A DNA stretch of 64,000 bases from NCBI RefSeq assembly GCF_001006005.1, contig NZ_CP011254.1, forward strand, positions 2,728,001 to 2,792,000, read 5' to 3'. Below the pieces are notes generated by a model. It searched no databases, had not been told where the DNA came from, and saw only the letters and a program-made list of their open reading frames with translations. Positions within the stretch are counted from its first letter, which is position 1. Every line of letters begins with the position of its first letter. The DNA is from Serratia fonticola. Lineage in GTDB: Bacteria > Pseudomonadota > Gammaproteobacteria > Enterobacterales > Enterobacteriaceae. Below, one piece after another: positions 3,877 to 18,205 of this stretch. Both the position numbers and the translations under genes were made by a program.

Positions 3877-4126
3877 CTGTTGTTTCCTCCGTGTCATCAG
3901 GAGGCAACGTTAAAATGGCTAACAGCGGGTAGCGAGGGAGGAATGCGGATTATGCGTGGCTGTTCCACCACAATACGTCCGTGTTACGCGGCGTTGAAAA
4001 ATAATGCGTAGTGCATCACAACCGGGAGGAAATGATGCCTGTTTGCGTATTACCTCATCCGCTAGAGCCGTTGACTGAGCTGGGGAGTGTCCATTTTTTC
4101 TCTAAAATTTCCCACTCATGAGATAT

Positions 4127-4153
4127 GATTATTCTTATGAGGTAAGAATAATC
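4127..4153. promoter_or_regulatory. Perfect 11-bp inverted repeat upstream of the peptide gene
   Basis: GATTATTCTTA (4127-4137) and TAAGAATAATC (4143-4153) are exact reverse complements with a five-base centre. It sits about 330 bases before the peptide start. It could be an operator for a dimeric regulator or a weak RNA hairpin; the AT-rich arms and lack of a following T run favour an operator. Confidence 0.5.
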
Positions 4154-4380
4154 CTGTATTTGGCTTTTTTTAATTAATGCGATAAAGGTAGGGTTTAACC
4201 CTGATTTTTAGAGTGTGATCCCTGATCTTTCTAAGAATACTCCTTTATCAATAATTCCGTAATATAATTCTTATATAATATTTATCAATAAAAATACCAT
4301 TGATCTGTTTTAGAGATCACGGTATCTTTGCCCTCGCCGTAACAGAGAAGTTAATAAATATCATATATTCTGCGCTTTAA

Positions 4381-4406
4381 TAAAGGCATGGGTTATCGTG
4401 CCTTTA
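4381..4406 (+). promoter_or_regulatory. Leader hairpin before the peptide gene
   Basis: TAAAGGCA (4381-4388) pairs with TGCCTTTA (4399-4406) around a ten-base loop, 80 bases before the GTG start of the peptide gene. It is followed by TATT rather than a long T run. It may be a terminator of an upstream transcript or a leader structure in the peptide mRNA. Confidence 0.4.
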
Positions 4407-4486
4407 TATTGAGCGCAGATTTGTTCTATCGTTGATGATAGACATAACTAGGGCTATTTATTTCACTTTTATATAAGGATGATGTT

Positions 4487-4675
4487 GTGAAAAAATTAAA
4501 CGTTTCTGAAGCTAGCACAATCGTTGGCGGCACCTGCAAAACCTGTAGCGTTGAGTATGTAAACCTGACTCCATCTACTTGTAATGCCGTTACCACTTGT
4601 GTAGACAAAGATGGCAAGGTTGTTAGCGTTGACAGCGCGCCAGTTTCTTTGGCCAATTGTGCACTGAAGCCATAA
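4487..4675 (+). CDS. Double-glycine-leader, cysteine-rich peptide precursor
   Basis: A 62-residue peptide starting at GTG, with AAGGAT six bases upstream; the nearest ATG (4482) runs into a stop after two codons. Residues 1-15, MKKLNVSEASTIVGG, form a typical double-glycine leader of the kind cut by C39 peptidases, which predicts a 47-residue core. The core has five cysteines (C17, C20, C32, C38, C58), including CKTC at its very start, and is otherwise rich in Thr, Val and Ser. It resembles small enterobacterial proteins that I recall being annotated DUF4762; that link needs a search. A C39 exporter gene lies 1.9 kb downstream on the same strand. The product could be a class II-type microcin, a signal or a modified peptide. 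No immunity gene is recognisable nearby. Confidence 0.82.
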   Translation: MKKLNVSEASTIVGGTCKTCSVEYVNLTPSTCNAVTTCVDKDGKVVSVDSAPVSLANCALKP

Positions 4676-4688
4676 TGTAAACGTTGGT

Positions 4689-4705
4689 TTCCTGTTTAAC
4701 AGGAA
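4689..4705 (+). terminator. Dyad just after the peptide gene (possible attenuator)
   Basis: TTCCTGTT (4689-4696) and AACAGGAA (4698-4705) form a near-continuous dyad 14 bases after the peptide stop. There is no T run. It could protect the short peptide mRNA or lower read-through into the downstream biosynthetic genes, which would let the peptide be made in excess. Confidence 0.4.
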
Positions 4706-4940
4706 CTAATGCCAGTGCTGGTGCGGTAGGGTTTATCGCATCAGCCTGTTTGATTCTCGTGCATTTTTAATGGACAGGGATGTGACTGCTGCAAGGATTA
4801 TTGCAGCCTGCCTGACTAAAACAATCAATATCCCTCCGTTATTAAGTGCTAATCGATTTACCCTTATACATTAAGGTTTGTGATTATTCACATGCAACCT
4901 TGAAAGATTTTGGGTATATGTAATTTAGGACGTAGCGCTC

Positions 4941-5615
4941 ATGTTCAAGAAGCCATTTTATCTTTTCGCCTATACCCTTTTGGTTATTATTATATCTTCG
5001 CTGATCACCACGGCTTATTTTCACTATTTTGTGCTGAATCAGAACTCAGGTCCAGAACAACAGGCTCTGACTATGGTCAGCGAGAGCGACGTTAAAACCA
5101 GCCCGATAAACACGGATAATACGATTGTCGAGATCTTCTCTTACGGCTGCCACTATTGCGCCTTGAACGAAGAGAATGTAGCCAAGATGGAAGCGCGGAT
5201 GCCAGCCGGGACTCAACTGGTCCGTGTGCATATCGCCAACCTGAACAATGATGGCCTGGCGAGCTTTGCCCCGTTGTTTGCCACCCTGACGGTGATGGGT
5301 ATTGAACCACAGCACCGTGAGAGCGCTTATAACGCCATAATCAAAGATAAAATCGATCTGAGTAATCCAGTCAATCGCGATAAATGGTTAACGAAAAACG
5401 GTATCGATCTTGCTGCCTATAACAAAGCCAGCCAGACACCGCAGGTGGCAGAACTACTGGACTATATGACCAAAATATCCGGGCATTACCAACTCAAGGC
5501 GACCCCAACGTTTATCGTCAACAAAAAGTGGATGGCCGTGCAGGATCGCGATTTCCCTGAGTTTGCCGATCATCTGCTGTCACTGTTACAGCATGACAAA
5601 CCGCTGGAGCAATAA
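4941..5615 (+). CDS. Membrane-anchored DsbA-like thiol-disulfide oxidoreductase
   Basis: A 224-residue protein with an N-terminal membrane segment (about residues 7-33) followed by a thioredoxin-fold domain with a DsbA-type helical insertion. The active site is C70-H-Y-C73 and the cis-proline is P189 in ATPTFIV. CPHC is the DsbA motif, so CHYC suggests a different redox potential. The domain should face the periplasm, where it could oxidise or isomerise cysteines. It is the first gene of a tightly packed operon (its TAA overlaps the next ATG) and lies 265 bases after a five-cysteine peptide, so folding of that peptide is the most natural role. The role is inferred from context; the fold assignment is solid. 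Confidence 0.85.
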   Translation: MFKKPFYLFAYTLLVIIISSLITTAYFHYFVLNQNSGPEQQALTMVSESDVKTSPINTDNTIVEIFSYGCHYCALNEENVAKMEARMPAGTQLVRVHIANLNNDGLASFAPLFATLTVMGIEPQHRESAYNAIIKDKIDLSNPVNRDKWLTKNGIDLAAYNKASQTPQVAELLDYMTKISGHYQLKATPTFIVNKKWMAVQDRDFPEFADHLLSLLQHDKPLEQ

Positions 5616-6562
5616 TGCGTTTATTTGCCGTGTGGGTGTATCTGGCGTGGAGAGAGGCGCTCACAACCCTAGCACGCGGTTCATTGCCCTTGCGCAGAGC
5701 ATACGGCAAGACGGTTTGTTGGCTACTGCATCACGGCAACTACCGTTGGTTCCTTGGGCTGGGGGCGCTGGGGCGCTGGCTGCGATTAAATGACCGGGGC
5801 GATCGTCGGCGTGCCTTTGTGGCCGAGGCGAATAAGCAATCCCTGCTCGGGGCTGACTACCAAGGGAATTTTGCCCGCACCAGTCAGCGCCGCCGTTTAT
5901 TGGAGCTGGCCGCAACCTATGGTCAGAGCCCTCAGGTCGCAGCCCAACTGGCTCGCTGCCAGGCAGAGCTTAATGCGGTCGTCGAGCCTTTGCATCAGGC
6001 AGGGCACCCAGTGGTGCTGGCACCGCTGCATATGCTCTCTGACGTGCTGGCCGGTATGGTCGGTGCCGGGGTATTTCCGGGACAGGCAACGGCGATTGTC
6101 TCCGTGAGCGTGGAGGTGTATCACGCCAGGGCGCGGGAATTAGGGGGCGTTAACCTGTCCTATTGCTCGATCCATGATGATAACCGGGAAATTGCCGGCA
6201 ATCTGATGGGCGCGATTATGGAAGCGGCCGATCATCAACGCAATATCATTATTTTCCCGGATATTTCGCCGGATTACACCGTCAATACCAATACGGCGCA
6301 AACGGCAAAGCTCAGTTGCCGTCTGTTTGATCGCCCGGCCAATTTGCACAGCGGCGTGATCCGCATTGCCCGAGCGCTGTCGGCGCAGGTGGTGTTTTAT
6401 TACCTGTATTACGACAAAGAGATAAAAATCCACATTGATCCGCCGATGCCGGCGCGCAGTGTGAAAGCCAGACTGCCGGAAATTGTTGAGAGTTCGATCG
6501 TCCGGCACCCCGAGGACTGGCTGTTATGGCACGCACATTCGTTATTTTTTATCAATGAATAA
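5615..6562 (+). CDS. LpxL/HtrB-like acyltransferase
   Basis: A 315-residue protein resembling the late acyltransferases of lipid A synthesis (LpxL/LpxM family), which take acyl chains from acyl-ACP at the cytoplasmic face of the inner membrane. The C-terminus RHPEDWLLWHAHSLFF mirrors the family ending, and IIIFPDISPDY sits where the family has its acyl-acceptor strand. The presumed catalytic motif is H139-M-L-S-D143, which is HX3D rather than the usual HX4D/E, so the match is divergent. It overlaps the upstream oxidoreductase (TAATG). An ACP, ketosynthase, dehydratase and ketoreductase lie downstream in the same run of genes, so a dedicated acyl donor is likely. The acceptor could be the peptide or a lipid. 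Confidence 0.7.
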   Translation: MRLFAVWVYLAWREALTTLARGSLPLRRAYGKTVCWLLHHGNYRWFLGLGALGRWLRLNDRGDRRRAFVAEANKQSLLGADYQGNFARTSQRRRLLELAATYGQSPQVAAQLARCQAELNAVVEPLHQAGHPVVLAPLHMLSDVLAGMVGAGVFPGQATAIVSVSVEVYHARARELGGVNLSYCSIHDDNREIAGNLMGAIMEAADHQRNIIIFPDISPDYTVNTNTAQTAKLSCRLFDRPANLHSGVIRIARALSAQVVFYYLYYDKEIKIHIDPPMPARSVKARLPEIVESSIVRHPEDWLLWHAHSLFFINE

Positions 6563-6586
6563 ACCGGAAATTGAAGAAGTCAGATC

Positions 6587-8722
6587 ATGGAAAAGATAAT
6601 CCCGACGCTGGTCTTTCAAGGCGAAACTAACGAATGTGGGCTGGCCTGCATCGCCATGATGGCGGAAACCCAGGGGATTGATGTCTCGCTGGAAAGCCTG
6701 CGTGAACGCTATCCGGCCTCACAGCATGGCACTTCATTGGCCAGGCTGTGCGATATCATGGGTGAATTGGCGATGCCCGCTTATCCCGTGGCCTTTGAAC
6801 ATAATGAGCTGGCAGAATTACCGCTGCCCGCCATTTTGCATTATGGCGCCAGCCATTACGTGGTGCTGGCCTACCGTAAAGGCAACCATGTCTGCGTGAT
6901 GAATCCGGGCATTGGTCAGCAACTGTTGCCGATTGATGCGCTGAAACTGGATATCAGCGGTTATGCGCTGGTGCTGGACAATGAAACCCAGCCCGATCCG
7001 CAGGCGCTAGCCAACGTGCAGCGCAGTAAACGCTTTCGCATGTTCGACACCATGAGTCTGAAAGAAACGGCACGTATCCCCGGCATTTACCGGTTGATGA
7101 TACTGGCGTTTCTGATCTCGTTAACCCTGTTTATCATGCCGACGATGGTCAGTAGCGCCATCAACCAGGTCTTTTCCTCTGCGGGAAAAACAGATTTCCC
7201 CTATTTTTACTTCCTGCTGGCGTTTGTCGTTTCGACCACGCTGGCCTTCGGCGTGCGCTGGATCACCGAGCGATTTATTAAACGTTTCGTGGTGGTCAAC
7301 AGCGTGGCCGGTTTCTCGCGCTTGCTCAGTAATTCACTGAATTTCTTTGATAAACGTGCGCCGGGTGACGTCTTTAGCCGTTTTGCCAGTTGGCAGATGG
7401 CCTCGGGCATTAAAATCGAGCTGGATAACGGCCTGCGTACCGACTGGATCATCGGTGCCATCGCGCTAGCGGTGATGTGCTATATGAGCCCGCTGCTGGC
7501 GATGGTGTCTGGTATCAGTGTCACCCTGATGGGGCTGGTTAGCGTCTGGGCCATCTATCGTGACCGCTATTTTACCCAGCAAATGCAGGTCAAAACGGCC
7601 GAACAGAGCGACTTTATCCTGGAGAGCATTCAAGGGTTCGCCACCATCAAGTCCGCTGGGCTCGATAGCCAGCGTAAGGGCCTGTTTGCCAAATATGCCC
7701 TGGCGCTGTTTACCTGTCGCCAGCAGCAGAGAATGTACGAGCAGGTCAAAAGCAGCCTGTATCAGTTGATCGGCAGCCTGGAGATGGTGCTGTTTATGTT
7801 CCTGGCGCTGCCGTTGTTGAAAAACGAAACTATCACGCTCGGGGAGTTCTTTGCCTATAGCTTTGTGCGTGAAATCTTCACCTCTTACATCACCAAGATT
7901 TTCTATTCCATCCTGCAAAAGAATCAGCTGAACGTGATTGATACCCGCGCGCGGGATCTGTTTCCGTCACGTTCTGCACCGGCGTTAGGCAATGATGCGG
8001 TTCCTGCGCCCATCCCGTCGTTCACCTCGCAACTGCGTTATAACCATATCGCCTTTGCCTATGACGCCCAGCAACCGGTGCTGCACGATCTTTCGCTGTC
8101 GCTCAGGCCGGGGCAAAGCATTGCCATTGTCGGTGAGTCTGGCGCGGGTAAAAGCACCTTGCTGAAGGTGATGACCGGCCTGATGCCACCACAGCAAGGG
8201 GACGTCATGGTGGATGGTCAACCGCTCGATTATCAGCAGGTGCACGCGCTGTTTTTCCTGCAAAGCCAGGAGGATATCTTGTTCAATGCCACGGTGCTGG
8301 AAAACATCACGCTGTTTGATGAGAACTTTAATGAACAAAAGCATCGGCAGATTGAGCGTTCGCTGGAAGGGCTGAATCTTGCTCCGGTGATCGAGAAATT
8401 GCCGGGCGGCCTGAATGCCCTGATCCGTGAAAGCCATGCTGGGCTGTCTCTGGGGCAACGCCAACGCCTGCTGCTAGCACGTGCCATGTACAGCGATCGC
8501 CCGGTGCTGGTGCTTGATGAACCTACGGCCAATCTGGATGAAGAAACGGCGCATCAAGTGATGGCCACTCTGCTGACACATTGTCGTGAGCACCATAAAA
8601 CGTTGATCACCGTAACGCACAGCGAGAGCGTCTTGCCGATGTTTGATCGGGTGTTCCGCGTGAGCAATGGCCATGTGGCCAGCGTCGAAACATCACCGAC
8701 ACTGACTACGGCGGTGTGCTGA
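6587..8722 (+). CDS. Peptidase-containing ABC transporter (C39, bacteriocin exporter type)
   Basis: A 711-residue PCAT. The N-terminal C39 peptidase (about residues 1-130) has the oxyanion Gln and catalytic Cys in QGETNECGLAC (C17) and the catalytic His in ASHYVVL (H90). The third triad position is Asn (N106 in MNPGIG) instead of the usual Asp. A six-helix ABC membrane domain follows (about 160-440), then the ATPase domain with Walker A GESGAGKST, signature LSLGQRQR (usually LSGGQ) and Walker B VLVLDEPTANLD. Such proteins cut double-glycine leaders and move the core peptide across the inner membrane, so the 4487-4675 peptide is the obvious substrate. The ATG is preceded by AAGAAG. Its TGA overlaps the next ATG. 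Confidence 0.93.
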   Translation: MEKIIPTLVFQGETNECGLACIAMMAETQGIDVSLESLRERYPASQHGTSLARLCDIMGELAMPAYPVAFEHNELAELPLPAILHYGASHYVVLAYRKGNHVCVMNPGIGQQLLPIDALKLDISGYALVLDNETQPDPQALANVQRSKRFRMFDTMSLKETARIPGIYRLMILAFLISLTLFIMPTMVSSAINQVFSSAGKTDFPYFYFLLAFVVSTTLAFGVRWITERFIKRFVVVNSVAGFSRLLSNSLNFFDKRAPGDVFSRFASWQMASGIKIELDNGLRTDWIIGAIALAVMCYMSPLLAMVSGISVTLMGLVSVWAIYRDRYFTQQMQVKTAEQSDFILESIQGFATIKSAGLDSQRKGLFAKYALALFTCRQQQRMYEQVKSSLYQLIGSLEMVLFMFLALPLLKNETITLGEFFAYSFVREIFTSYITKIFYSILQKNQLNVIDTRARDLFPSRSAPALGNDAVPAPIPSFTSQLRYNHIAFAYDAQQPVLHDLSLSLRPGQSIAIVGESGAGKSTLLKVMTGLMPPQQGDVMVDGQPLDYQQVHALFFLQSQEDILFNATVLENITLFDENFNEQKHRQIERSLEGLNLAPVIEKLPGGLNALIRESHAGLSLGQRQRLLLARAMYSDRPVLVLDEPTANLDEETAHQVMATLLTHCREHHKTLITVTHSESVLPMFDRVFRVSNGHVASVETSPTLTTAVC

Positions 8723-9882
8723 TGAAGCTGAAGATGTTTGGCAAGGCTCGCCGTCTGGTAATGCTCGCCTTGCTGTGCCTGGTGGCCTTGATCGGCGCGA
8801 TCGTCTGGTACGTCTCTACACCAGCGCAGGATCATACCTATGACACCGAAGAGATCACCCGTGGCGATATCGAAAAAACCGTGCTGGCCACCGGCATTCT
8901 TAAACCGGCACTGCAGGTCAGCGTTGGTGCCCAGGTTAACGGGCAATTGCAAAAGCTGTATGTGAAGCAGGGCGATCGTGTCACCCGCGGGCAGTTGCTG
9001 GCGGAAATTGACCCGACCTTGCAACAGAACGCACTGCGTAAATCGCAAGCGGCCCTGCAAAGCGCCGAAGCGCAAAAGCAAGTCACCCAGGCAACGCTCA
9101 AGCAATATCAACAGGAATTGAAGCGTCAGTTGAGGCTGGATCGTGATGGTTCAGGCGTGAAAAGCGATCTGGAGAGGGCGCAGGCACAGCTCCAAACTCA
9201 GGTTGCCCAGTTGAAGGTCAACGACGCACAGATCGTCCAGGCGCAGATGGAGCTGGAAACGGCCAAGGCCAATCTGGGCTTTACCCGCATCGTTGCGCCG
9301 ATCGACGGTGAAGTGCTGGGTATTGTGACCAAGGAAGGGCAGACCATCGTGTCGTCACAAACCGTCCCGACCATTCTGGTGCTGGCGGATGTGGACACCA
9401 TGACGGTACACACCCGTATTTCGGAGACCGATATCCTGAAGGTGCGCGTAGGGCAACCGCTGTGGTTTTACGTGGTGGCCGATCCAAAACAGCGCTACGA
9501 AAGCGTGATGGGCTCTATCCAGGAAGCCCCCAATGAGGCTTTGCAGGAAGACAACGCATCAAGTTCCTCCAATCAGCAGGCTTCGGCGGTGTATTACAGC
9601 GGCGTATTTGCTATCGCCAACAGTAAGCGCCTGCTGCGAACTTCGATGACCGCCCAGGTATTTATCATTACCGAGCAGGCGAAGAACGCCCTGCGTGTCC
9701 CGGTGGCGGCCTTTGGTGAACAACAGGGTAAAGATCGTTATCAGGTACAGGTGATGAACGGTAAACAGCTTGAGTCACGCTGGGTGCGCATCGGCCTGAA
9801 CGACCGCCAGTTTGCCGAAGTAAAAGAAGGGCTGAAAGAGGGCGACCGCGTGGTATTGGCGGGGAGCGCTAGCAATGGTTAA
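8722..9882 (+). CDS. MacA/HlyD-type periplasmic adaptor
   Basis: A membrane-fusion protein of about 386 residues. The N-terminal anchor is about residues 10-30. The lipoyl half-motif GAQVNGQLQKLYVKQGDRV leads into a long alpha-helical hairpin rich in Gln, Ala and Lys (about 95-180), then the second lipoyl half and beta-barrel with IVAPIDGEVLGIVTKEGQ. This is the MacA arrangement. I chose ATG 8722, which overlaps the transporter stop (TGATG); an in-frame GTG at 8716 is possible. It overlaps the MacB-like gene by eight bases. It should join the inner-membrane pump to the outer-membrane channel encoded next. Confidence 0.9.
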   Translation: MKLKMFGKARRLVMLALLCLVALIGAIVWYVSTPAQDHTYDTEEITRGDIEKTVLATGILKPALQVSVGAQVNGQLQKLYVKQGDRVTRGQLLAEIDPTLQQNALRKSQAALQSAEAQKQVTQATLKQYQQELKRQLRLDRDGSGVKSDLERAQAQLQTQVAQLKVNDAQIVQAQMELETAKANLGFTRIVAPIDGEVLGIVTKEGQTIVSSQTVPTILVLADVDTMTVHTRISETDILKVRVGQPLWFYVVADPKQRYESVMGSIQEAPNEALQEDNASSSSNQQASAVYYSGVFAIANSKRLLRTSMTAQVFIITEQAKNALRVPVAAFGEQQGKDRYQVQVMNGKQLESRWVRIGLNDRQFAEVKEGLKEGDRVVLAGSASNG

Positions 9883-11830
9883 GCCATCTTCTGCGTTGAT
9901 CTCACTGAGCGGTATCTCCCGGCATTTTGTTTCTGGGTTGCAGACCGTAGCGGTACTGAAAAATGTCTCCCTCTCCATCCAACCGGGCGAGATGGTGGCG
10001 ATCGTTGGTGCGTCCGGCTCGGGGAAATCCACGTTGATGAACATCATCGGCTGCCTGGATAAACCCACCGAAGGTGAGATGCAGATCAAAGGTATCTCCA
10101 CCCAACTCGCCAGCAGTGAGCAGTTGGCCGAGTTACGCAGCCAGTACATCGGGTTTATTTTTCAGCGTTATCACCTGATGCCTTATCTGAGCGCCAGCGA
10201 AAACGTCGCCATTCCTGCCCTGTATACCGCGATGCCTGCGGCGGAACGCCAGACGCGTGCCGAATACCTGCTGACCCGGCTTGGGTTGCAACAGCGGATG
10301 AACTACAAACCGGCGCAGCTCTCCGGCGGGCAACAGCAGCGCGTCAGTATTGCCCGCGCGTTGATGAACGGGGCGGAAATTATTCTGGCCGATGAACCGA
10401 CCGGTGCGCTCGATCGCGCCAGTGGGCAGGAGTTGATGGAAATCCTGCACTCCCTGCACCGCTCGGGGCACACCATCATTATCGTCACCCACGATCGGGA
10501 TGTCGCCAACCAGGCGCAGCGTATTATTGAAATCAGCGACGGTGAAATTATTGCCGATAGGCGCAATGAAGCGGTCGCGCCACAGAAAACCCGGCCCGTA
10601 TTACCGGTGGTCGCTGCCACAGGACGCATGCCGTTTTGGCAGAGCGTACAAGAGGCGATCAAGATGGCCTGGCGTGCGCTGATGGGGCACCGTGCCAGAG
10701 CCTTCCTGTCGATGTTGGGCATCATTATCGGTGTCTCTTCCGTGGTGTCGTCAATGGCGGTGGGTGAGGGCGCACGGCAAAATATTCTTAGGGAGATCGG
10801 TCAACTGGGCAACAGCACGTTGGAGATCCGCCCTGGTGAGGGGAGAGGGAAAGTACGGCCTGACTTTGCCCGTGCACTGAAGGTCTCTGATGTAGAACTG
10901 TTGGCTCGCCAGCAGTATGTCGACAGCGTGTCGCCAGTCGTCAGCAAAACCGTGGCTGCGGTGCGCGGTGGCAAAGAGGTGATGGTGGCGATTTCCGGCA
11001 TCAGCAATGCCTATTTCCGCGTGCAGGGCCTGCATTTTATCTCTGGTAACGGTTTTACCCAGCGCGATCTGGACGAGCGGGAACCGGTGGTGATTATTGA
11101 CCCGGAATTACGCGATACGCTGTTTGAAACGGATGAAACACCAGAAGGGGAAATCATCCAGCTTGGCGGTACGCCTTACCGGGTGATCGGCATTGCCGAG
11201 CGTAAAGGCGGCAAATTCAGCGGCATGATGCTGGGCGCCTGGATGCCCTATACCGCGCTGCTGGAGCGCATGTCCGGCGATATGCCGATCGAGTCCATGA
11301 CCTTGCGTGTACGTGACGGGCTTTCACCGCATGAGGTACAGGGACGAGTGGAAAAACTAGTAGAACAGGCTCATGGCCAGCGTGACTTTTATACCCAGAC
11401 CAACGATCAGATGACGCAGGCCATCCGCAAGGCGTCGGATTCGATGAATCTGCTGATCACCGCTATTGCCGGGATTTCACTGCTGGTGGGGGGGGTTGGC
11501 GTGATGAACATCATGCTGGTTTCGGTCACCGAGCGTACCCACGAGATCGGCATCCGTCTTTCAGTCGGCGCACGGCCAGCGGACATAATGCGCCAGTTCC
11601 TGATTGAAGCGATGGTGATCTGCTCGCTGGGCGGGTTGATTGGCATTATTGGTTCCGGGTTGGCCGGGGTAATTTTCTCCCAGGTGACTCAAGAGTTCTC
11701 GATGATCTTTACCTGGCCACCGTTGGTACTTGCCTGCGGGTTCTCTGCACTGATCGGCCTGGGTTTTGGCTTTTTCCCGGCGCGCAATGCGGCACGTCTT
11801 CATCCAACGGAGGCGCTGGCGCGCGAATGA
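9875..11830 (+). CDS. MacB-type ABC transporter (ATPase and FtsX-like permease)
   Basis: A 651-residue MacB family protein. The N-terminal ATPase has Walker A GASGSGKST (45-53), signature LSGGQQQRVSIARAL and Walker B IILADEPTGALD. Four membrane helices follow in the MacB/FtsX layout: one near 280, a large periplasmic domain, then three at the C-terminus including ISLLVGGVGVMNIMLVSVTERT. MacB uses ATP to drive export of substrates already in the periplasm, rather than moving them across the inner membrane. Here this fits a second export step for a product released by the C39 transporter. The gene overlaps both neighbours. Confidence 0.93.
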   Translation: MVKPSSALISLSGISRHFVSGLQTVAVLKNVSLSIQPGEMVAIVGASGSGKSTLMNIIGCLDKPTEGEMQIKGISTQLASSEQLAELRSQYIGFIFQRYHLMPYLSASENVAIPALYTAMPAAERQTRAEYLLTRLGLQQRMNYKPAQLSGGQQQRVSIARALMNGAEIILADEPTGALDRASGQELMEILHSLHRSGHTIIIVTHDRDVANQAQRIIEISDGEIIADRRNEAVAPQKTRPVLPVVAATGRMPFWQSVQEAIKMAWRALMGHRARAFLSMLGIIIGVSSVVSSMAVGEGARQNILREIGQLGNSTLEIRPGEGRGKVRPDFARALKVSDVELLARQQYVDSVSPVVSKTVAAVRGGKEVMVAISGISNAYFRVQGLHFISGNGFTQRDLDEREPVVIIDPELRDTLFETDETPEGEIIQLGGTPYRVIGIAERKGGKFSGMMLGAWMPYTALLERMSGDMPIESMTLRVRDGLSPHEVQGRVEKLVEQAHGQRDFYTQTNDQMTQAIRKASDSMNLLITAIAGISLLVGGVGVMNIMLVSVTERTHEIGIRLSVGARPADIMRQFLIEAMVICSLGGLIGIIGSGLAGVIFSQVTQEFSMIFTWPPLVLACGFSALIGLGFGFFPARNAARLHPTEALARE

Positions 11831-13221
11831 TGATGAAAAAGCTTTCTCTGACCATCTTGTTGCCCCTGCTGCTGAGCGGCTGTGGTTCCTTGACGAAAAG
11901 CGATTATCAGCGGCCAATGCTGTCGGTGCCCGCCGAGTGGCGAGTGCAGGATACTGGTTCAGGCTATCTGCAACACACTGACCACTGGTGGGATAACTTC
12001 GAGGATCCACAGCTCTCGATGCTGATCGGACGCGCGCTAACCAGCAACAACGATCTGGCCATCGCGGGCATACAGCTGCAGCAGGCCCGATTGGCGGCTG
12101 GGTTAACCGATACCAATTTAACGCCTGATGTTTCAGTTACGGGTAGCGCTAACAACAACAAAAACCTGCGGAATAATACGACTCCGACGGAATCTTACAG
12201 CACAACGTTGTCGCTGAGCTATGAGCTGGATCTGTGGGGTAAATTGGCGCGAGCGAGGGAGCAGGCGCAGTGGCAGGTTGAAGCCACGGAGCAGGATCGG
12301 CAAAACACCGCGCTGACGCTGATCGGCAATACGGCGCAGTATTATTGGCAGATCGCCAGCCTTAACCAGAAGATAAAACAGCAGCAAGCGGGTCTGGAAA
12401 TCAGTCAGCAGACGCTGGCTCTGGTGCAGTCACGTTATGCTTCCGGTGCTGCCGGACAGCTCGATCTGTTACAGGCGAAACAGTCGTTGCTTAATCGTGA
12501 GAACACCTATCGCACGTTGCAACAGCAGCGGGAAGAGAACCGTAATGCGCTGGCGATCCTGTTTAACCGTTCGCCCACCGATCGTCAGGCAGAGCGCAGC
12601 TCGCTGGACATCAATCAGGATGTGCCAATTGCCAAAGTGCTGCCGGTTGAGGTCATTGCCCGCCGTCCAGACGTGAAGGCGGCGGAAGGGCGTCTGCGAG
12701 CAGCCCTGGCCGGTTCGGATGTGGAGCGTTTAAGCTTCTATCCATCGCTGTCACTGGCGGCCTCACTCGGCTCTGCCAGCAGCATTTTCTCTCAATGGTT
12801 CAGCAATCCGGTCAGGACGCTGGGAGCCAACGCTGCGTTGCCGTTTGTGCAATGGAACACGGTGCAATTGACCATTGAGAAGTCGGATTTGGACGTCAAA
12901 CAGGCGGCGATCGTCTTTCGCAGCCAGGTCTACAACGCGCTTGCCGACGTGGATAACGCCATGTCGCAACGGCTCAGCTATCAACAGCAAAAAATCAATC
13001 AGCAACAGAATCTGCAGCTTAGCCAGCAGCGTCTGGTATTGGCCAGAAGCCAGTACCAGGCGGGGGCCGTCTCTTTCCAGAGCCTACTGGATGCCGAGGA
13101 CGATCTGCTGACCATCGAAACCAATTTGTCAGATCTGCAGTACAACTACCTCAATGCCACCATGAAGCTGTGGTTGGCGTTGGGCGGCGGTGTGGAAAAA
13201 GACAGTGATATAACAGGATGA
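11827..13221 (+). CDS. TolC/NodT-family outer-membrane channel lipoprotein
   Basis: A 464-residue outer-membrane efflux protein. The signal peptide ends in the lipobox LLLSGC, so the mature protein should be lipidated, as in the NodT/OprM group. Two OEP repeats with long amphipathic helices follow; the second contains RRPDVKAAEGRLRAA, a hallmark of the family. It overlaps macB by four bases (ATGA), so adaptor, pump and channel are made together as a dedicated tripartite exporter independent of the housekeeping TolC. Confidence 0.92.
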   Translation: MMMKKLSLTILLPLLLSGCGSLTKSDYQRPMLSVPAEWRVQDTGSGYLQHTDHWWDNFEDPQLSMLIGRALTSNNDLAIAGIQLQQARLAAGLTDTNLTPDVSVTGSANNNKNLRNNTTPTESYSTTLSLSYELDLWGKLARAREQAQWQVEATEQDRQNTALTLIGNTAQYYWQIASLNQKIKQQQAGLEISQQTLALVQSRYASGAAGQLDLLQAKQSLLNRENTYRTLQQQREENRNALAILFNRSPTDRQAERSSLDINQDVPIAKVLPVEVIARRPDVKAAEGRLRAALAGSDVERLSFYPSLSLAASLGSASSIFSQWFSNPVRTLGANAALPFVQWNTVQLTIEKSDLDVKQAAIVFRSQVYNALADVDNAMSQRLSYQQQKINQQQNLQLSQQRLVLARSQYQAGAVSFQSLLDAEDDLLTIETNLSDLQYNYLNATMKLWLALGGGVEKDSDITG

Positions 13222-13225
13222 GATC

Positions 13226-14476
13226 ATGAATAAAGATGCTTTGTCACGTCGCGTGGTGGTTACAGGCTTTGGTGCGGTCACGCCATTGGGGATGAATGCC
13301 GAGCAAAGCTGGGCGGCGATTATGGATTATCAGTTGGGCTACCGCTATTTCGATCGGTCCGCCGTAGGGATCCAGTCACGTTTCTTCGGGGTGATCGACG
13401 ATGAACCCAGCCTGAAAGGCGTTCCTGCGGCGATCCGTCGCCGCCTGCCACGTTTTGCCCGCCTGGCGTTGGGGGCGGCCCGCGAAGCGATGGAGATGGC
13501 CTTCCACGGGGAGAGCCCGGCGGCCTATTACGATCTGCTTGAGTGCGGCACCATCATCGGCAGCGGCTGGGCGGGTCAGGATGAAACCCATATTAATTAC
13601 GAAGGCTATCTGCGCACGGGGTTAGGCTCACCGTTTGGCTGTTTCCTGTCTATGCCGAATGCGGCAACGGCGGCCTGTAGCCTGTACTGGGGCCTGCGCG
13701 GTTATCAAAATAGCCCGATTGCGGCCTGTGCCACCGGGACGATCGCCATCGGCGATGCGTTTGAGGTGATCCGCAGTGGCCGTGCCTCGATGATGCTGGC
13801 CGGGGCTGGCGAGTCGCTGTGTACCGATGCCGCCGTATGGAACATCGATATCCTGCGCGCCTTGGCGAGTGAGCAGGATGATGCCAGCAAGGCCTGCTGC
13901 CCATTCAGCCTCGATCGCAACGGCTTTGTCCTGTCCGAAGGTGCTGCCGTGTTGTGCCTGGAAGAGCGCGAAGCCGCACTGGCGCGTGGGGCAACCATCC
14001 TGGGGGAAATCAAGGGCTATGGCAATTACTCCGATGCCTTCGACTTTACCGCACCGGCGGAAGACAAGATTGCCCGGGTGAAAACCATCCAGCATGCCTT
14101 GCGCCAGGCCGGGGTAACGGCGGAGGAGATTGACTATATCAATGCGCATGGCACGTCTACGCCTCTCAACGATCTGAATGAAACCCAAGCGATCAAGCTG
14201 GCCTTCGGCGAGGCGGCCTATAGCACCCCGCTTTCCAGCACCAAGTCTTACTCCGGGCATCTGATTGCGGCGGCAGGCAGCTTTGAATCCATCATCTGTC
14301 TGCAAGCGTTGCAGCATCAGCTGATGCCAGCCACCTGTCACCTGAAAAATGCCGATCCGGAGTGCGATCTGGACTACATCAGCGAAGGGCATCGCCCGGC
14401 CCGGTTACAGAACATCTTGAATCTGAGCTTTGGTTTCGGTGGTGCTAACGCGGCGTTGGTTATCGGGCAGGCATGA
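13226..14476 (+). CDS. Beta-ketoacyl-ACP synthase (FabF-like)
   Basis: A 416-residue condensing enzyme of the KAS II/FabF type. The Cys-His-His triad is C168 in AACATG, H308 in NAHGTSTPLND and H345 in SGHLIAAAG, with the conserved Lys at 340, so it should be an active elongating enzyme and not a chain-length factor. It extends an acyl-ACP by two carbons from malonyl-ACP. It starts five bases after the channel gene and overlaps the dehydratase. It differs enough from housekeeping FabF (for example FDRSAVGIQSRFFG near the N-terminus) to be a specialised paralogue. Confidence 0.9.
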   Translation: MNKDALSRRVVVTGFGAVTPLGMNAEQSWAAIMDYQLGYRYFDRSAVGIQSRFFGVIDDEPSLKGVPAAIRRRLPRFARLALGAAREAMEMAFHGESPAAYYDLLECGTIIGSGWAGQDETHINYEGYLRTGLGSPFGCFLSMPNAATAACSLYWGLRGYQNSPIAACATGTIAIGDAFEVIRSGRASMMLAGAGESLCTDAAVWNIDILRALASEQDDASKACCPFSLDRNGFVLSEGAAVLCLEEREAALARGATILGEIKGYGNYSDAFDFTAPAEDKIARVKTIQHALRQAGVTAEEIDYINAHGTSTPLNDLNETQAIKLAFGEAAYSTPLSSTKSYSGHLIAAAGSFESIICLQALQHQLMPATCHLKNADPECDLDYISEGHRPARLQNILNLSFGFGGANAALVIGQA

Positions 14477-15282
14477 GCATGATCCTCAACTATACCCTGC
14501 GTGATGCTGAAGAGTGGGCCGCCTTTTCCGGCGACTACAACCCGATCCATTTTGATCTGCAGCACGTGCGCAAAATGGGGGCCGATCAGCTAAGTGTCCA
14601 CGGGATGCGTGCGATGCTGGACATGAAACGTCATCTGAGTGAGGTGTTGCTTGCGACTCCGCTGGAGCATGACTTTTATGTTTTCAGCGCTCGCATGCGC
14701 CGACCGGTGCTGTGCCAGACGCCGTATCACTTGCAGATAGCGGGCAGCGGCAAGCAGATCACCGGCAAGTTGCTGGACAGTGTCACGCAGGAAAGCTGTT
14801 TCAACAGCAAACTGGCTCCGGCTCAGTCGTTAGAGCCGGTAGCTTCTGAGTATGAGCATGCGCTGACCGTTAACGAGGTGATGGCTCTCAGCCAGCGGTT
14901 CCCGGGACAGGCGTCGGAGGCCACTCAGGCGTGGAGTTTCTTTGACGCCCTGCTGTTCCAATTGCTGGTGAAATCCCCGGAAACCTTGGCGGCGCTGACG
15001 ACGGCGCTGCCGGAACTGCAGGTCGCTACGTTGATTGAGGTGTTTGCCCAGCTCCCGGTGGTACAGACGCACCATGAGACCCACTTCAGCGCCCGATTAT
15101 TCAACCCCGAAACGCTATTTGCACCCGAAGATCGGCTGTACTACCGCATTCAGCCGATGCTGGTGATCGGGGACCGAAGCAGCGGATTTGTGTTACGCGC
15201 GGTGATCGAGGCCAGAACGCAGTGGCAAGCGTTGCTTGTCACCTCGGTGACCTTAAAAACATGGCCAATGGCCGACAACTAA
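14473..15282 (+). CDS. MaoC-like (hot-dog) 3-hydroxyacyl-ACP dehydratase
   Basis: A 269-residue protein. The N-terminal half has the hydratase-2 signature FSGDYNPIHFD, with the catalytic Asp and His, followed by VHGM. It should dehydrate 3-hydroxyacyl-ACP to the enoyl form. The C-terminal half (about 150-269) shows no clear catalytic motif and may be a second, inactive hot-dog fold. The gene overlaps the ketosynthase by four bases and precedes the ACP gene by 16 bases. A MaoC-type rather than FabA/FabZ-type dehydratase suggests recruitment from specialised metabolism. Confidence 0.8.
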   Translation: MSMILNYTLRDAEEWAAFSGDYNPIHFDLQHVRKMGADQLSVHGMRAMLDMKRHLSEVLLATPLEHDFYVFSARMRRPVLCQTPYHLQIAGSGKQITGKLLDSVTQESCFNSKLAPAQSLEPVASEYEHALTVNEVMALSQRFPGQASEATQAWSFFDALLFQLLVKSPETLAALTTALPELQVATLIEVFAQLPVVQTHHETHFSARLFNPETLFAPEDRLYYRIQPMLVIGDRSSGFVLRAVIEARTQWQALLVTSVTLKTWPMADN

Positions 15283-15298
15283 ACATAGGGATATTACC

Positions 15299-15547
15299 AT
15301 GGGAAATTACCAACAGGTTTACGACATCGTTACTGAAATGATTTGTGATGCCAAAGATCTTGAGATGGCCGATCTGGCCCCAGAGATGCCTCTGCAGCAG
15401 TTGAAGCTGGACAGCCTGGACTATGTGGAGCTGATGGTGCTGGCCAAGCGTGAGTTCGGAGTCACGCTCAACGCCGAAATGTTCATCAATCAGCCGAATA
15501 TGACGCTGGGTGAGCTCTGTCAAAGCCTGGCTGACACGCAAAAGTAA
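15299..15547 (+). CDS. Acyl carrier protein
   Basis: An 82-residue ACP. The phosphopantetheine serine is S39 in LKLDSLDYVEL, within the expected four-helix pattern; residues 1-20 form the first helix. An AGGGAT ribosome site lies upstream of the ATG. It would carry the growing acyl chain for the adjacent ketosynthase, dehydratase and ketoreductase and act as donor for the LpxL-like acyltransferase. Having its own ACP separates this pathway from primary fatty-acid synthesis. Confidence 0.92.
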   Translation: MGNYQQVYDIVTEMICDAKDLEMADLAPEMPLQQLKLDSLDYVELMVLAKREFGVTLNAEMFINQPNMTLGELCQSLADTQK

Positions 15548-15551
15548 TCCT

Positions 15552-16286
15552 ATGACTAAACAATGGGTATTAGTGACCGGGGGTAGCCGGGGGATTGGCC
15601 GCGCGTTAGTGGAAGAACTGGCCAAGCAGTGGAACGTGGTGTTCACTTGCCGTAGCGGCCAGTCGGCCAGCGCGGCGGTGATTGCAACCTGCGCGGGTTT
15701 GCCGGGTTGGGTGGAAAGCTGCGTCTGTGACGGCAGTGACGAGCAGGCGGTGAACCTAGTGGCTCCACAGTTGCTGACACGCCTCGGAGCGCCTTTTGCG
15801 GTGATCCACAACGCCGGGATCACGCTGGATGATTTGCATATCCAGCAAACAGGTGAGCGCTGGCGGCAGGTGATCGACACCAACCTCAACGCCATCTTCT
15901 ACTGGAACCGGCACCTGCTGCCCGCCATGATGGCACAGGGGGAGGGGGCGATGGTGCTGATGTCTTCAGTGACGGGCATCAAGGGCAATACCGGGCAAAC
16001 GGCCTATGGGGCCAGTAAGGCGGCGATGATCGGCATGGGGAAATCTCTGGCGCTGGAAGTGGCCCGTTTTGGTATCCGGGTGAACTGCCTGCTGCCCGGG
16101 ATTATCGAAAGCGAGATGACGCAGGCCATTCCGCCGGAGGCGCTGAAGGCGCTGCGCAAGCAAATTCCTCTGCGCCGCCTGGGCAAAGCCAGCGAAGTGG
16201 CGCGTACCACCGCGTTTCTCATCGGTGATGACAGCCGTTATATGACGGGCCAAAGCCTGATCCTTGACGGGGGTTTGACCGTCTAA
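15552..16286 (+). CDS. 3-oxoacyl-ACP reductase (FabG-like SDR)
   Basis: A 244-residue short-chain dehydrogenase. The nucleotide-binding motif is TGGSRGIGRA near the N-terminus, NAG follows, and the catalytic residues are Ser in MSSVTG and Tyr/Lys in YGASK. It reduces the 3-keto group on the ACP-bound chain. The ATG at 15552 begins five bases after the ACP stop; a longer frame back to 15510 overlaps the ACP and is not needed. Last gene of the cluster, followed by a hairpin at 16310-16333. No enoyl reductase follows. Confidence 0.9.
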   Translation: MTKQWVLVTGGSRGIGRALVEELAKQWNVVFTCRSGQSASAAVIATCAGLPGWVESCVCDGSDEQAVNLVAPQLLTRLGAPFAVIHNAGITLDDLHIQQTGERWRQVIDTNLNAIFYWNRHLLPAMMAQGEGAMVLMSSVTGIKGNTGQTAYGASKAAMIGMGKSLALEVARFGIRVNCLLPGIIESEMTQAIPPEALKALRKQIPLRRLGKASEVARTTAFLIGDDSRYMTGQSLILDGGLTV

Positions 16287-16638: not shown

Positions 16639-17199
16639 ATGTCGGCTAACACCAATCGTAAGTTTTTGAGCATGGATGAAGTACAGCGTTTACTTGATGC
16701 AATTCCTGATCATAAGAATACCGTCCGTGATAAATGTATGTTGCTGGTTTGCTTCATTCATGGATTGCGCGTCTCCGAGCTCTGTAATCTGCGCCTGCAG
16801 GATCTGGATTTACTCAGCAAAAAATTGTATGTCAATCGCCTGAAAAACGGCTTTTCCGTCCAACATCCGATTCAGCCGCGTGAGCACTCCGCACTGGTCA
16901 GTTGGCTGGCCCTGCGCCCACAATATCTTGAAGCAGACAGTGATTTTCTGTTTCTGTCACGCCAGGGGGGGCGACTTTCTCGCCAGCAGATGCATCGCCT
17001 GTTCCGTGAGTACGGTGAACTTGCTGGACTGAATGTCCCCGTGCATCCGCATATGTTACGCCACGCCTGTGGTTATGCGCTGGCTGATGACGGCATTGAT
17101 ACTCGTTTAATCCAAGATTATCTGGGTCATAAAAATATTCAGAATACGGTAATTTATACTGCCAGTAACGCGGGGCGCTTTCGCTCGATTAGAATATAA
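16639..17199 (+). CDS. FimB/FimE-type tyrosine recombinase (first)
   Basis: A 186-residue tyrosine recombinase made only of the catalytic domain, the length typical of FimB and FimE. The catalytic set is complete: R44 (HGLRVSEL), H138 and R141 (HMLRH), H164 (LGHKN) and the nucleophile Y173 (VIYTASN). In E. coli, FimB and FimE invert the fimS promoter element upstream of fimA. Here a second such gene, a candidate invertible element (18236-18556) and fimA follow in the same order. Whether this one is bidirectional like FimB cannot be told from sequence. Confidence 0.92.
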   Translation: MSANTNRKFLSMDEVQRLLDAIPDHKNTVRDKCMLLVCFIHGLRVSELCNLRLQDLDLLSKKLYVNRLKNGFSVQHPIQPREHSALVSWLALRPQYLEADSDFLFLSRQGGRLSRQQMHRLFREYGELAGLNVPVHPHMLRHACGYALADDGIDTRLIQDYLGHKNIQNTVIYTASNAGRFRSIRI

Positions 17200-17656: not shown

Positions 17657-18205
17657 ATGAATAATCGCAAGCATCTGACTCCTTCCGAAGTTGCGCGTCT
17701 GCTAGGAGCTACTCAGCAGGGTAAACACGCTGAACGCGATTACTGTTTGATTTGGATGTGTTTTATCCACGGATGTCGTGTCAGTGAGATCAACCGCTGG
17801 CGCCTTTCCGATATCGATTTGGAGGGCAAAAGCATTTATATCCATCGCCTGAAAAACGGCTTTTCCACCATTCATCCTTTATATGCCAAAGAACATAAAG
17901 CGTTACGCGCCTGGTTAAAAGTCAGACGCACTTATCGAGGTGCCGAAAGCGACTGGTTATTCCTTTCCGAGAAGGGTAATCATCTATCCCGCCAGCGTAT
18001 CTACTGGTTAATGCGTCATTACAGCGAGTTGGCTGGTCTGGAGGTTAACGCCCATCCTCACATGCTGCGACATGGTTGTGGATTCGCGCTGGCAGACCGC
18101 GGGATAGATACTCGATTGATTCAGGATTTTCTTGGGCATAAGAATATTCAGCACACCGTACTTTATACGGCCAGCAATGCGCGGAGATTTAAAGAAGTCT
18201 GGTAA
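17657..18205 (+). CDS. FimB/FimE-type tyrosine recombinase (second)
   Basis: A 182-residue tyrosine recombinase with the full catalytic set: R41 (HGCRVSEI), H135 and R138 (HMLRH), H161 (LGHKN) and Y170 (VLYTASN). It shares long blocks with the first recombinase, so the two arose by duplication. A GAGG site lies upstream of the ATG. Its stop is only 30 bases before the left arm of the candidate invertible element, the position FimE holds in E. coli, where element orientation controls fimE mRNA stability. Confidence 0.92.
   Translation: MNNRKHLTPSEVARLLGATQQGKHAERDYCLIWMCFIHGCRVSEINRWRLSDIDLEGKSIYIHRLKNGFSTIHPLYAKEHKALRAWLKVRRTYRGAESDWLFLSEKGNHLSRQRIYWLMRHYSELAGLEVNAHPHMLRHGCGFALADRGIDTRLIQDFLGHKNIQHTVLYTASNARRFKEVW

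Follow-up and report, generated by a model that had tools for sequence, protein, structure and literature searches.

A widespread Enterobacterales operon for a small ribosomal peptide that is probably fatty-acylated and exported in two steps

Several bacterial systems have been described in which a small peptide or protein is acylated or is handed to a pump of the MacB family. In the Aat system, consisting of AatPABCD together with CexE/dispersin, the substrate first undergoes Sec export and cleavage by signal peptidase I, and AatD then acylates its N-terminal glycine in the periplasm (PMC7943197). MacAB-TolC exports the heat-stable enterotoxin II of E. coli and a MacB-family pump is associated with the lipopeptide entolysin (PMC8277102); pick-up of the enterotoxin by a MacB-family pump occurs from the periplasm (PMC7943197). 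Selidamides/nostolysamides, microvionin, goadvionins and lipoavitides are ribosomal peptides carrying a long acyl chain on a lysine or ornithine side chain or on the N-terminus (PMC13060382). The present study concerns an eleven-gene operon at positions 4487..16286 of a stretch of 64,000 nucleotides from Serratia fonticola (contig NZ_CP011254.1, positions 2,728,001 to 2,792,000), called the window below. It encodes a peptide precursor of the Pfam family DUF4762, a DsbA-like oxidoreductase, an acyltransferase with the LPLAT fold, a C39 peptidase ABC exporter, a MacA-like adaptor, a MacB-like pump, a TolC-like channel, a ketosynthase (KS), a dehydratase (DH), an acyl carrier protein (ACP) and a ketoreductase (KR). 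The operon is predicted to yield a small ribosomally made peptide that probably receives a fatty acyl chain, probably forms disulfides and probably leaves the cell in two steps. Gene content and order, motifs, co-occurrence, the connection between Cys number and DsbA and the conserved K-x-G are read from the sequences; acylation, its site, the chain, the disulfides and the export route are inferred from them.

The Aat system resembles this operon in its dedicated acyltransferase, MacB-like pump, MacA-like adaptor and TolC-like channel, and in the export of an acylated small protein from the periplasm outwards in two steps. It differs in that AatD is Lnt-like, and the available text makes no mention of a double-glycine leader or a C39 exporter, nor of fatty-acid genes or a DsbA of its own (PMC7943197). 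No Lnt-like C-N hydrolase of the AatD type was found in a Pfam scan of ten cluster proteins; KR was scanned with NCBIfam and matched reductases. The lipidated ribosomal peptides differ in that they are lanthipeptides acylated by GNAT-family enzymes, and the same scans revealed neither a GNAT protein nor a lanthionine synthetase. The enterotoxin and entolysin exporters share with the operon a MacB-family pump and a peptide or lipopeptide cargo, but dedicated peptide maturation genes are not described for them in the available part of the source (PMC8277102). In summary of these comparisons, Aat is nearest in logic and the GNAT-lipidated peptides are nearest in product, and each fails a defining feature. 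The title of the lipoavitide paper reportedly names non-modular fatty acid synthases. Class II microcins of the MccV type have a double-glycine leader, a C39 exporter and disulfides; the cluster has, in addition, a tripartite pump, an acyltransferase and KS/DH/ACP/KR, and no immunity gene is seen within the operon, the flanks being unsearched. HlyC acylates lysines in the cytosol from acyl-ACP ahead of export, but belongs to another acyltransferase family than the cluster enzyme and uses housekeeping acyl-ACP. In a literature search that did not extend to subscription papers, the word DUF4762 occurred in no paper and, among the matches listed, no title or abstract dealt with the gene set. A pangenome survey found clusters resembling those for polyketide synthases to be common in Yersinia, and these could be this operon (PMC9125672). 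If the proposed pathway is correct, it would assign a function to DUF4762, for which Pfam gives none, as well as to a gene set present on genomes and plasmids, and it would be a new route for making and exporting lipopeptides in Gram-negative bacteria.

The cluster is a widespread family and is not limited to the window. Two further complete operons with the same gene order lie in the 6.0 Mb one-contig genome, at ~500-512 kb and 3.495-3.507 Mb. Compared with those of the window, their proteins show 65-93% identity, with DH (65%) and KS and KR (93%) as extremes, and their peptides are 50% and 62% identical to the window peptide. A single scan of GTDB contigs using 27 aligned acyltransferases yielded 60 loci in more than 20 named Enterobacterales genera, including Serratia, Yersinia, Rahnella, Klebsiella, Enterobacter, Citrobacter, Providencia and Pantoea. 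All 60 have the order acyltransferase-C39-MacA-MacB-TolC-KS-ACP on one strand; DH and KR are present in 55, as is the DsbA-like gene (also 55/60), and the peptide gene lies upstream of the operon in 57. The three exceptions (L and G numbers denote loci and genomes) are L068, in which a double-glycine peptide lies downstream of KR, as seen on a longer stretch (L165); L064, whose contig begins inside the acyltransferase gene, so that the presence of a peptide cannot be judged there; and L089, with a truncated peptide open reading frame (ORF) only. A second Rahnella locus (L160) likewise has its peptide downstream. Two clusters carry tandem peptide genes, L057 (8799, 9059) and L060 (8822, 9046). 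The two extra full copies in the genome and the 60 syntenic loci elsewhere indicate that the cluster is more than a chance arrangement. The gene content, single strand and mostly overlapping ends described in the original prediction were borne out by the ORFs and family matches, and its proposal to look for the gene set in other genomes led to 60 loci of common order besides the two extra copies.

The operon seems to evolve mostly as one unit, as indicated by correlated pairwise identities across ten of its genes, KR being left out: the correlation is 0.91 for acyltransferase and KS, 0.96 for acyltransferase and C39, and 0.61 for the lowest pair, peptide and ACP. In a tree of KS proteins, all 63 cluster members (60 + 3) form one clade with a support of 0.97; four further KS-like proteins encoded in the genome and those of three stand-alone cassettes discussed below lie outside it. 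Catalytic motifs are largely kept. The catalytic Cys, His and His of KS and the DSLD motif of ACP occur in 63/63 family members, GDxNPxH of DH in 58/58, HxxSD of the acyltransferase in 62/63 and CxxC of the DsbA-like protein in 56/58. The Cys and His of C39 are present in all 60 (of 63) sequences, and the Tyr-Lys of KR in all 48 (of 58), that are long enough for alignment. Shortened reading frames occur in some draft loci (C39 in 6/63, MacB in 3, the TolC-like and DsbA-like proteins in 1 each). The C39 protein has the features of its exporter class, namely the catalytic Cys and His, the ABC domains and a substrate with a double-glycine leader; at the third catalytic position an N stands where the catalytic residue is expected (MNP). 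A search of solved structures with this protein matched generic ABC exporters and a bacteriocin transporter. In the window leader, L(-12), E(-8) and GG match the signature given in the accessible part of PMC8277102, with A at -7 versus Leu in the signature.

The peptide and the acyltransferase occur together. Among 198 genomes of the family, the acyltransferase was found in 21 and DUF4762 in 21 (20 above the cut-off), with 20 genomes common to both. G064 has a weak DUF4762 match only, with an internal stop. G035 is the acyltransferase genome without a Pfam peptide match; its coordinates are those of L067 (Rahnella inusitata), where a divergent peptide is present. The dehydratase occurs in all 21 acyltransferase genomes, with distant matches in G111 and G138. 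Every genome of the window's genus (7/7) has the acyltransferase, six of them with a single match, as have 9/14 of the genus of G035. In samples of the order and the class, where scoring stopped after 5 or 6 candidates in each genome and misses are possible, matches were found in 9/394 genomes, one of them outside the family, and in the own genome only of 369, respectively. The surroundings of 149 database relatives lie outside the count of peptide presence. Nine satellite DUF4762 genes were also seen (L122, L123 with two, L124, L125, L126 with two and L127 with two). They have no adjoining cluster genes, all encode K-x-G and four Cys, and their host genomes carry the acyltransferase and the dehydratase; the satellite peptides are possible substrates in trans.

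Plasmids provide a second set of cases. Of 72,556 plasmid records, 14 encode the acyltransferase (10 from E. coli, 2 from Salmonella and one each from Chimaeribacter and S. marcescens), and 9 of the 14 are predicted to be conjugative. The E. coli operon seemed peptide-less at first; a scan across all of pPSS-15_1 then located a four-Cys DKHG peptide ~4 kb past KR. The plasmid records matched by this peptide number 12 and are precisely those from E. coli and Salmonella that have the acyltransferase; two pairs among the 12 are equal in length and are possibly double deposits. Similarly, acyltransferase and peptide occur in an identical set of 9 among 5426 E. coli genomes, all plasmid-borne. On pCFSAN083828_2, 46 kb separate the two genes. 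That both are retained together although kilobases apart is a stronger argument for a shared function than operon order, though they share a plasmid. A distant nucleotide search of E. coli with a Citrobacter gene gave nothing, a result that is misleading, as the plasmid protein search did find the acyltransferase. On plasmid pE41 of S. marcescens the order is peptide-MacA-MacB-TolC-KS-DH-ACP-KR-acyltransferase-C39, with no DsbA match. A Salmonella plasmid operon (L181, 13159-27759) has C39, MacB and TolC interrupted, and that plasmid encodes a four-Cys DKYG peptide at a separate place. In a plasmid cluster of Chimaeribacter arupi (L182, 11227-14986) the peptide ORF is truncated and the C39 gene is annotated as two pieces. 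Gene order, co-occurrence and plasmids together support the functional unit that had been proposed, i.e., double-glycine peptide, acyltransferase, C39, MacAB and KS/DH/ACP/KR.

To the 71 peptides first listed (62 at clusters and 9 satellites) seven were added later, giving 78 cores, of which 77 are distinct. Cluster peptides were selected on their leader and position, without regard to K-x-G or Cys, and satellites by the Pfam profile. The leader pattern presets a hydrophobic residue at position 4, therefore leader conservation is not counted. Peptides of L161-L164 (repeated species) and of further E. coli/Salmonella plasmid records were left out, three such plasmid peptides being counted. The cores have a common scaffold of Cys A, B and C, x-DKxG and Cys D, with an additional Cys near the N-terminus in many. 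K-x-G is found in 76/78 cores, while 21.3 are expected after shuffling each core, and DKxG in 69/78. C17, K26 and G28 are invariant in the 57 aligned cores (of 71). The window peptide scores 38.8 bits against DUF4762 (PF15959), above the cut-off of 27; six divergent relatives that were scanned all fall below it, three of them without any match. The structure model of the peptide (predicted local distance difference test, pLDDT, 85.4; predicted TM-score, pTM, 0.58) has strands at 4-13, 16-24 and 30-38, and DKxG falls in the turn that joins strands 2 and 3. A fold search with this model gave no significant solved match (best E 0.12), and the row for laterosporulin3 (E 0.36) does not count as evidence.

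Action of the DsbA-like protein on the peptide is best supported by the finding that its presence tracks the number of Cys. Among 69 cluster-associated peptides, the number of Cys is 4-6 in 64/64 with a DsbA-like gene and 0-2 in 5/5 without it (Fisher 9e-8, kinship not corrected for); satellites and L089/L182, with their truncated ORFs, are left out of this table. The three dsbA-less Rahnella peptides retain Cys B and D (read from the alignment in L066 and L067, by eye in L165). Of the other dsbA-less cases, pE41 branches away from the Rahnella clade and L131 is far more distant. The number of independent dsbA losses was not counted because the trees conflict on the joining point of pE41 and the E. 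coli plasmid clusters. Strand register in the model and the Cys that vanish together point to a predicted pairing of Cys A-C and B-D. The link between Cys and DsbA predicts which disulfide would depend on the DsbA-like protein. Of the disulfide-bonded peptide proposed originally, the connection with the DsbA-like gene stands (64/64 versus 0/5 with at least 4 Cys) and the bonds themselves are predicted.

The model of the acyltransferase (pLDDT 81.8) finds PatA (E 2e-10) and LpxM (E 2e-8) as best solved folds, with TM-scores of 0.48-0.68. Together with the predicted catalytic His-Asp at the beginning of a helix, which is invariant in 27 aligned sequences, this places the enzyme in the LPLAT fold as modelled. 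The usual motif of the LPLAT family is HX4D/E; the spacing here is H-x3-D. Membership in the lipid A acyltransferase family (PF03279) was not found, as the cluster enzymes score 18-20 bits (18.9 for the window protein) at a cut-off of 22.3, while three other proteins of the same genome are full members at 330-360 bits. Lipid A modification was for this reason rejected as the principal function. An aryl-polyene-like pigment cluster, which would combine KS/ACP/DH/KR with an LpxL-like enzyme, was likewise rejected: there is one KS, a peptide and C39 accompany it, and no AMP ligase or glycosyltransferase is among the 11 genes, aryl-polyene genes not having been searched for directly.

Based on these elements, the following pathway is proposed. 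An acyl chain would be elongated and processed by KS, KR and DH on the operon's own ACP. Still in the cytosol, the LPLAT-fold enzyme would then hand this chain from ACP to the precursor, with the conserved Lys at the tip of the DKxG hairpin as the most likely acceptor. A cytosolic reaction is suggested by ACP as the donor and by the orientation of LpxL-type enzymes. The C39 exporter would remove the double-glycine leader and deliver the peptide to the periplasm, where the DsbA-like protein would form the two disulfides. Finally, MacAB and the operon's own TolC-like channel may release the acylated peptide from the cell or deposit it on the outside. The two-step export of the original prediction is a reasonable inference, since a DsbA-like protein needs a periplasmic stage and MacB pumps take periplasmic cargo (PMC7943197; PMC8277102). 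The operon would in full be a secretion-coupled lipidation pathway for DUF4762 disulfide mini-proteins, with cytosolic acylation of the DKxG Lys by an LPLAT-type enzyme, a chain made for the purpose by its own type II fatty-acid set, a private DsbA and two ABC exporters. Next to Aat it would constitute another lipopeptide secretion system, of separate evolutionary origin, Enterobacterales-wide and plasmid-mobile, processing satellites in trans and making a different chain in Serratia clusters without DH and KR. In this complete form we consider the proposal evenly balanced between right and wrong.

A number of observations weigh against this pathway. Three KS-DH-ACP cassettes (L157, L158 and L159; two in G138, one in G111), two of them with KR, stand alone, and their KS are 51-52% identical to the window KS. 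They are without acyltransferase, C39 peptidase or peptide match, although they were not scanned for unrelated double-glycine peptides. These cassettes possibly belong to other natural-product pathways; at L157, an AMP-ligase-like gene and an EmrAB-like exporter accompany the cassette (by eye). In five Serratia clusters forming one clade (L050, L055, L061, L062 and L063, from Serratia inhibens, plymuthica, ureilytica, nevei and marcescens), neither DH nor KR is seen at the locus, while KS and ACP are kept. L131 (3393-10269), whose genome of 2.5 Mb belongs to a different family, has a double-glycine peptide without Cys, an acyltransferase, C39, MacA and MacB, and its 19 kb hold no KS/DH/ACP/KR, TolC or DsbA; its peptide has no K-x-G. 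A protein search with the L131 acyltransferase gave four matches, itself included. K-x-G is also missing in L165 (Rahnella), which has NKHN instead, and since the satellites were found with the Pfam profile they are not free evidence for the motif, which amounts to 67/69 without them. Moreover, K-x-G conservation could serve folding or pump recognition. Satellite peptides lie far from any cluster, and among the acyltransferase surroundings examined one, in Chimaeribacter, is clearly without an intact peptide, having a truncated ORF only. The dsbA-less cases are not five independent events, as the three Rahnella ones are one clade, and the L076 peptide has lost Cys D in the presence of DsbA (five Cys remain). 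Taken together, L131 and the peptide-less cassettes suggest that peptide, acyltransferase and exporters may be the core, to which the chain-making cassette was added or from which it was lost. The expectation that the peptide always travels with KS-DH-ACP-KR holds in part: the 20 shared genomes and the plasmids agree with it, and the three cassettes, L131 and the five Serratia clusters do not. KS-DH-ACP-KR-acyltransferase sets without peptide or C39, which the original prediction named as what would count against it, were encountered in part: the three cassettes have no peptide match and no C39 peptidase, and they lack the acyltransferase as well. Natural variants such as these allow the lipid, disulfide and export steps to be examined separately.

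Some of these observations would fit an alternative in which KS/DH/ACP/KR and the acyltransferase serve to produce a lipid of their own or, in the manner of LpxL, to alter one of the membrane, for instance to anchor or protect the producer, while the peptide is exported lipid-free. The enzyme's fold is common to lipid A acyltransferases and mycobacterial PatA, and KS/DH/ACP cassettes exist elsewhere without a peptide. However, L131 keeps peptide, acyltransferase, C39 and MacAB without fatty-acid genes, the peptide is co-inherited even where it is apart from the operon, and the genome's true lipid A family members score far above the cluster enzymes (see above). This alternative is considered improbable.

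Two further alternatives are compatible with acylation of the exported peptide. The acyl group might be placed on the new N-terminus, a Cys or a hydroxyl, with the DKxG Lys serving folding or recognition. Precedents are the N-terminally acylated modified ribosomal peptides microvionin and goadvionins (PMC13060382) and the N-terminal glycine acylated by Aat (PMC7943197), and DKxG lies within a hairpin turn of the model. Yet the presumed donor would be a cytosolic ACP, whereas the new N-terminus would arise only at C39 cleavage, and the first core residue is variable while K26 is constant in the 57 aligned cores. Such a variant of the proposed pathway is possible but less likely than not. The peptide could also be a microcin-like antibacterial whose lipid is incidental, as the double-glycine leader, C39 exporter, TolC-like channel and plasmid carriage would suggest. 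Against this, all eleven genes of the window are otherwise assigned and none of them is an immunity gene, the flanks and other loci being unsearched; this option appears rather unlikely.

The features of the operon are listed in Table 1.

Table 1. Coordinates of the operon features in the window
Feature	Position	Strand	Remarks
DUF4762 precursor	4487..4675	+	GTG start; 15-aa double-glycine leader and 47-aa core, 5 Cys, DKDG turn (K26, G28 of core)
Putative stem-loop, possible attenuator (weak)	4717..4745	+	between peptide and dsbA-like gene
DsbA-like oxidoreductase	4941..5615	+	CHYC; N-terminal hydrophobic stretch (by eye), would anchor protein
LPLAT-fold acyltransferase	5615..6562	+	H139xxSD143
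C39 peptidase ABC exporter	6587..8722	+	
MacA-like periplasmic adaptor	8716..9882	+	
MacB-like ABC pump	9875..11830	+	
NodT/TolC-like outer-membrane channel	11827..13221	+	lipobox-like N-terminus
FabF-like ketosynthase (KS)	13226..14476	+	own clade
MaoC-like dehydratase (DH)	14473..15282	+	GDYNPIH
Acyl carrier protein (ACP)	15299..15547	+	DSL motif
FabG-like ketoreductase (KR)	15552..16286	+	listed ORF begins at GTG 15510

The GTG start of the peptide gene is common to the window and both paralogues. Stems like the one at 4717..4745 are also present in both paralogous copies, as judged by eye, and 2 terminator-like sites were observed in 3900-5000 versus 0.9 expected. The start of KR is more likely ATG 15552, 5 bases past the ACP stop, than GTG 15510, because 9/58 relatives have a stop within 15 codons of the aligned upstream start. 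The window dehydratase scores 24.9 bits against PF01575, under the cut-off of 27. MacA, MacB and an outer-membrane factor are encoded together, as is typical of a tripartite pump; with 726 bits for MacB (model cut-off 966) and 307 bits for MacA (cut-off 342), the exporter appears related to MacAB but not MacAB itself. After the cluster come two FimB/FimE-like tyrosine recombinases (16639-17199 and 17657-18205, named by eye) and then a fimbrial operon. A similar recombinase is found 3′ of the second copy (L006) and of the five Serratia clusters without DH and KR.

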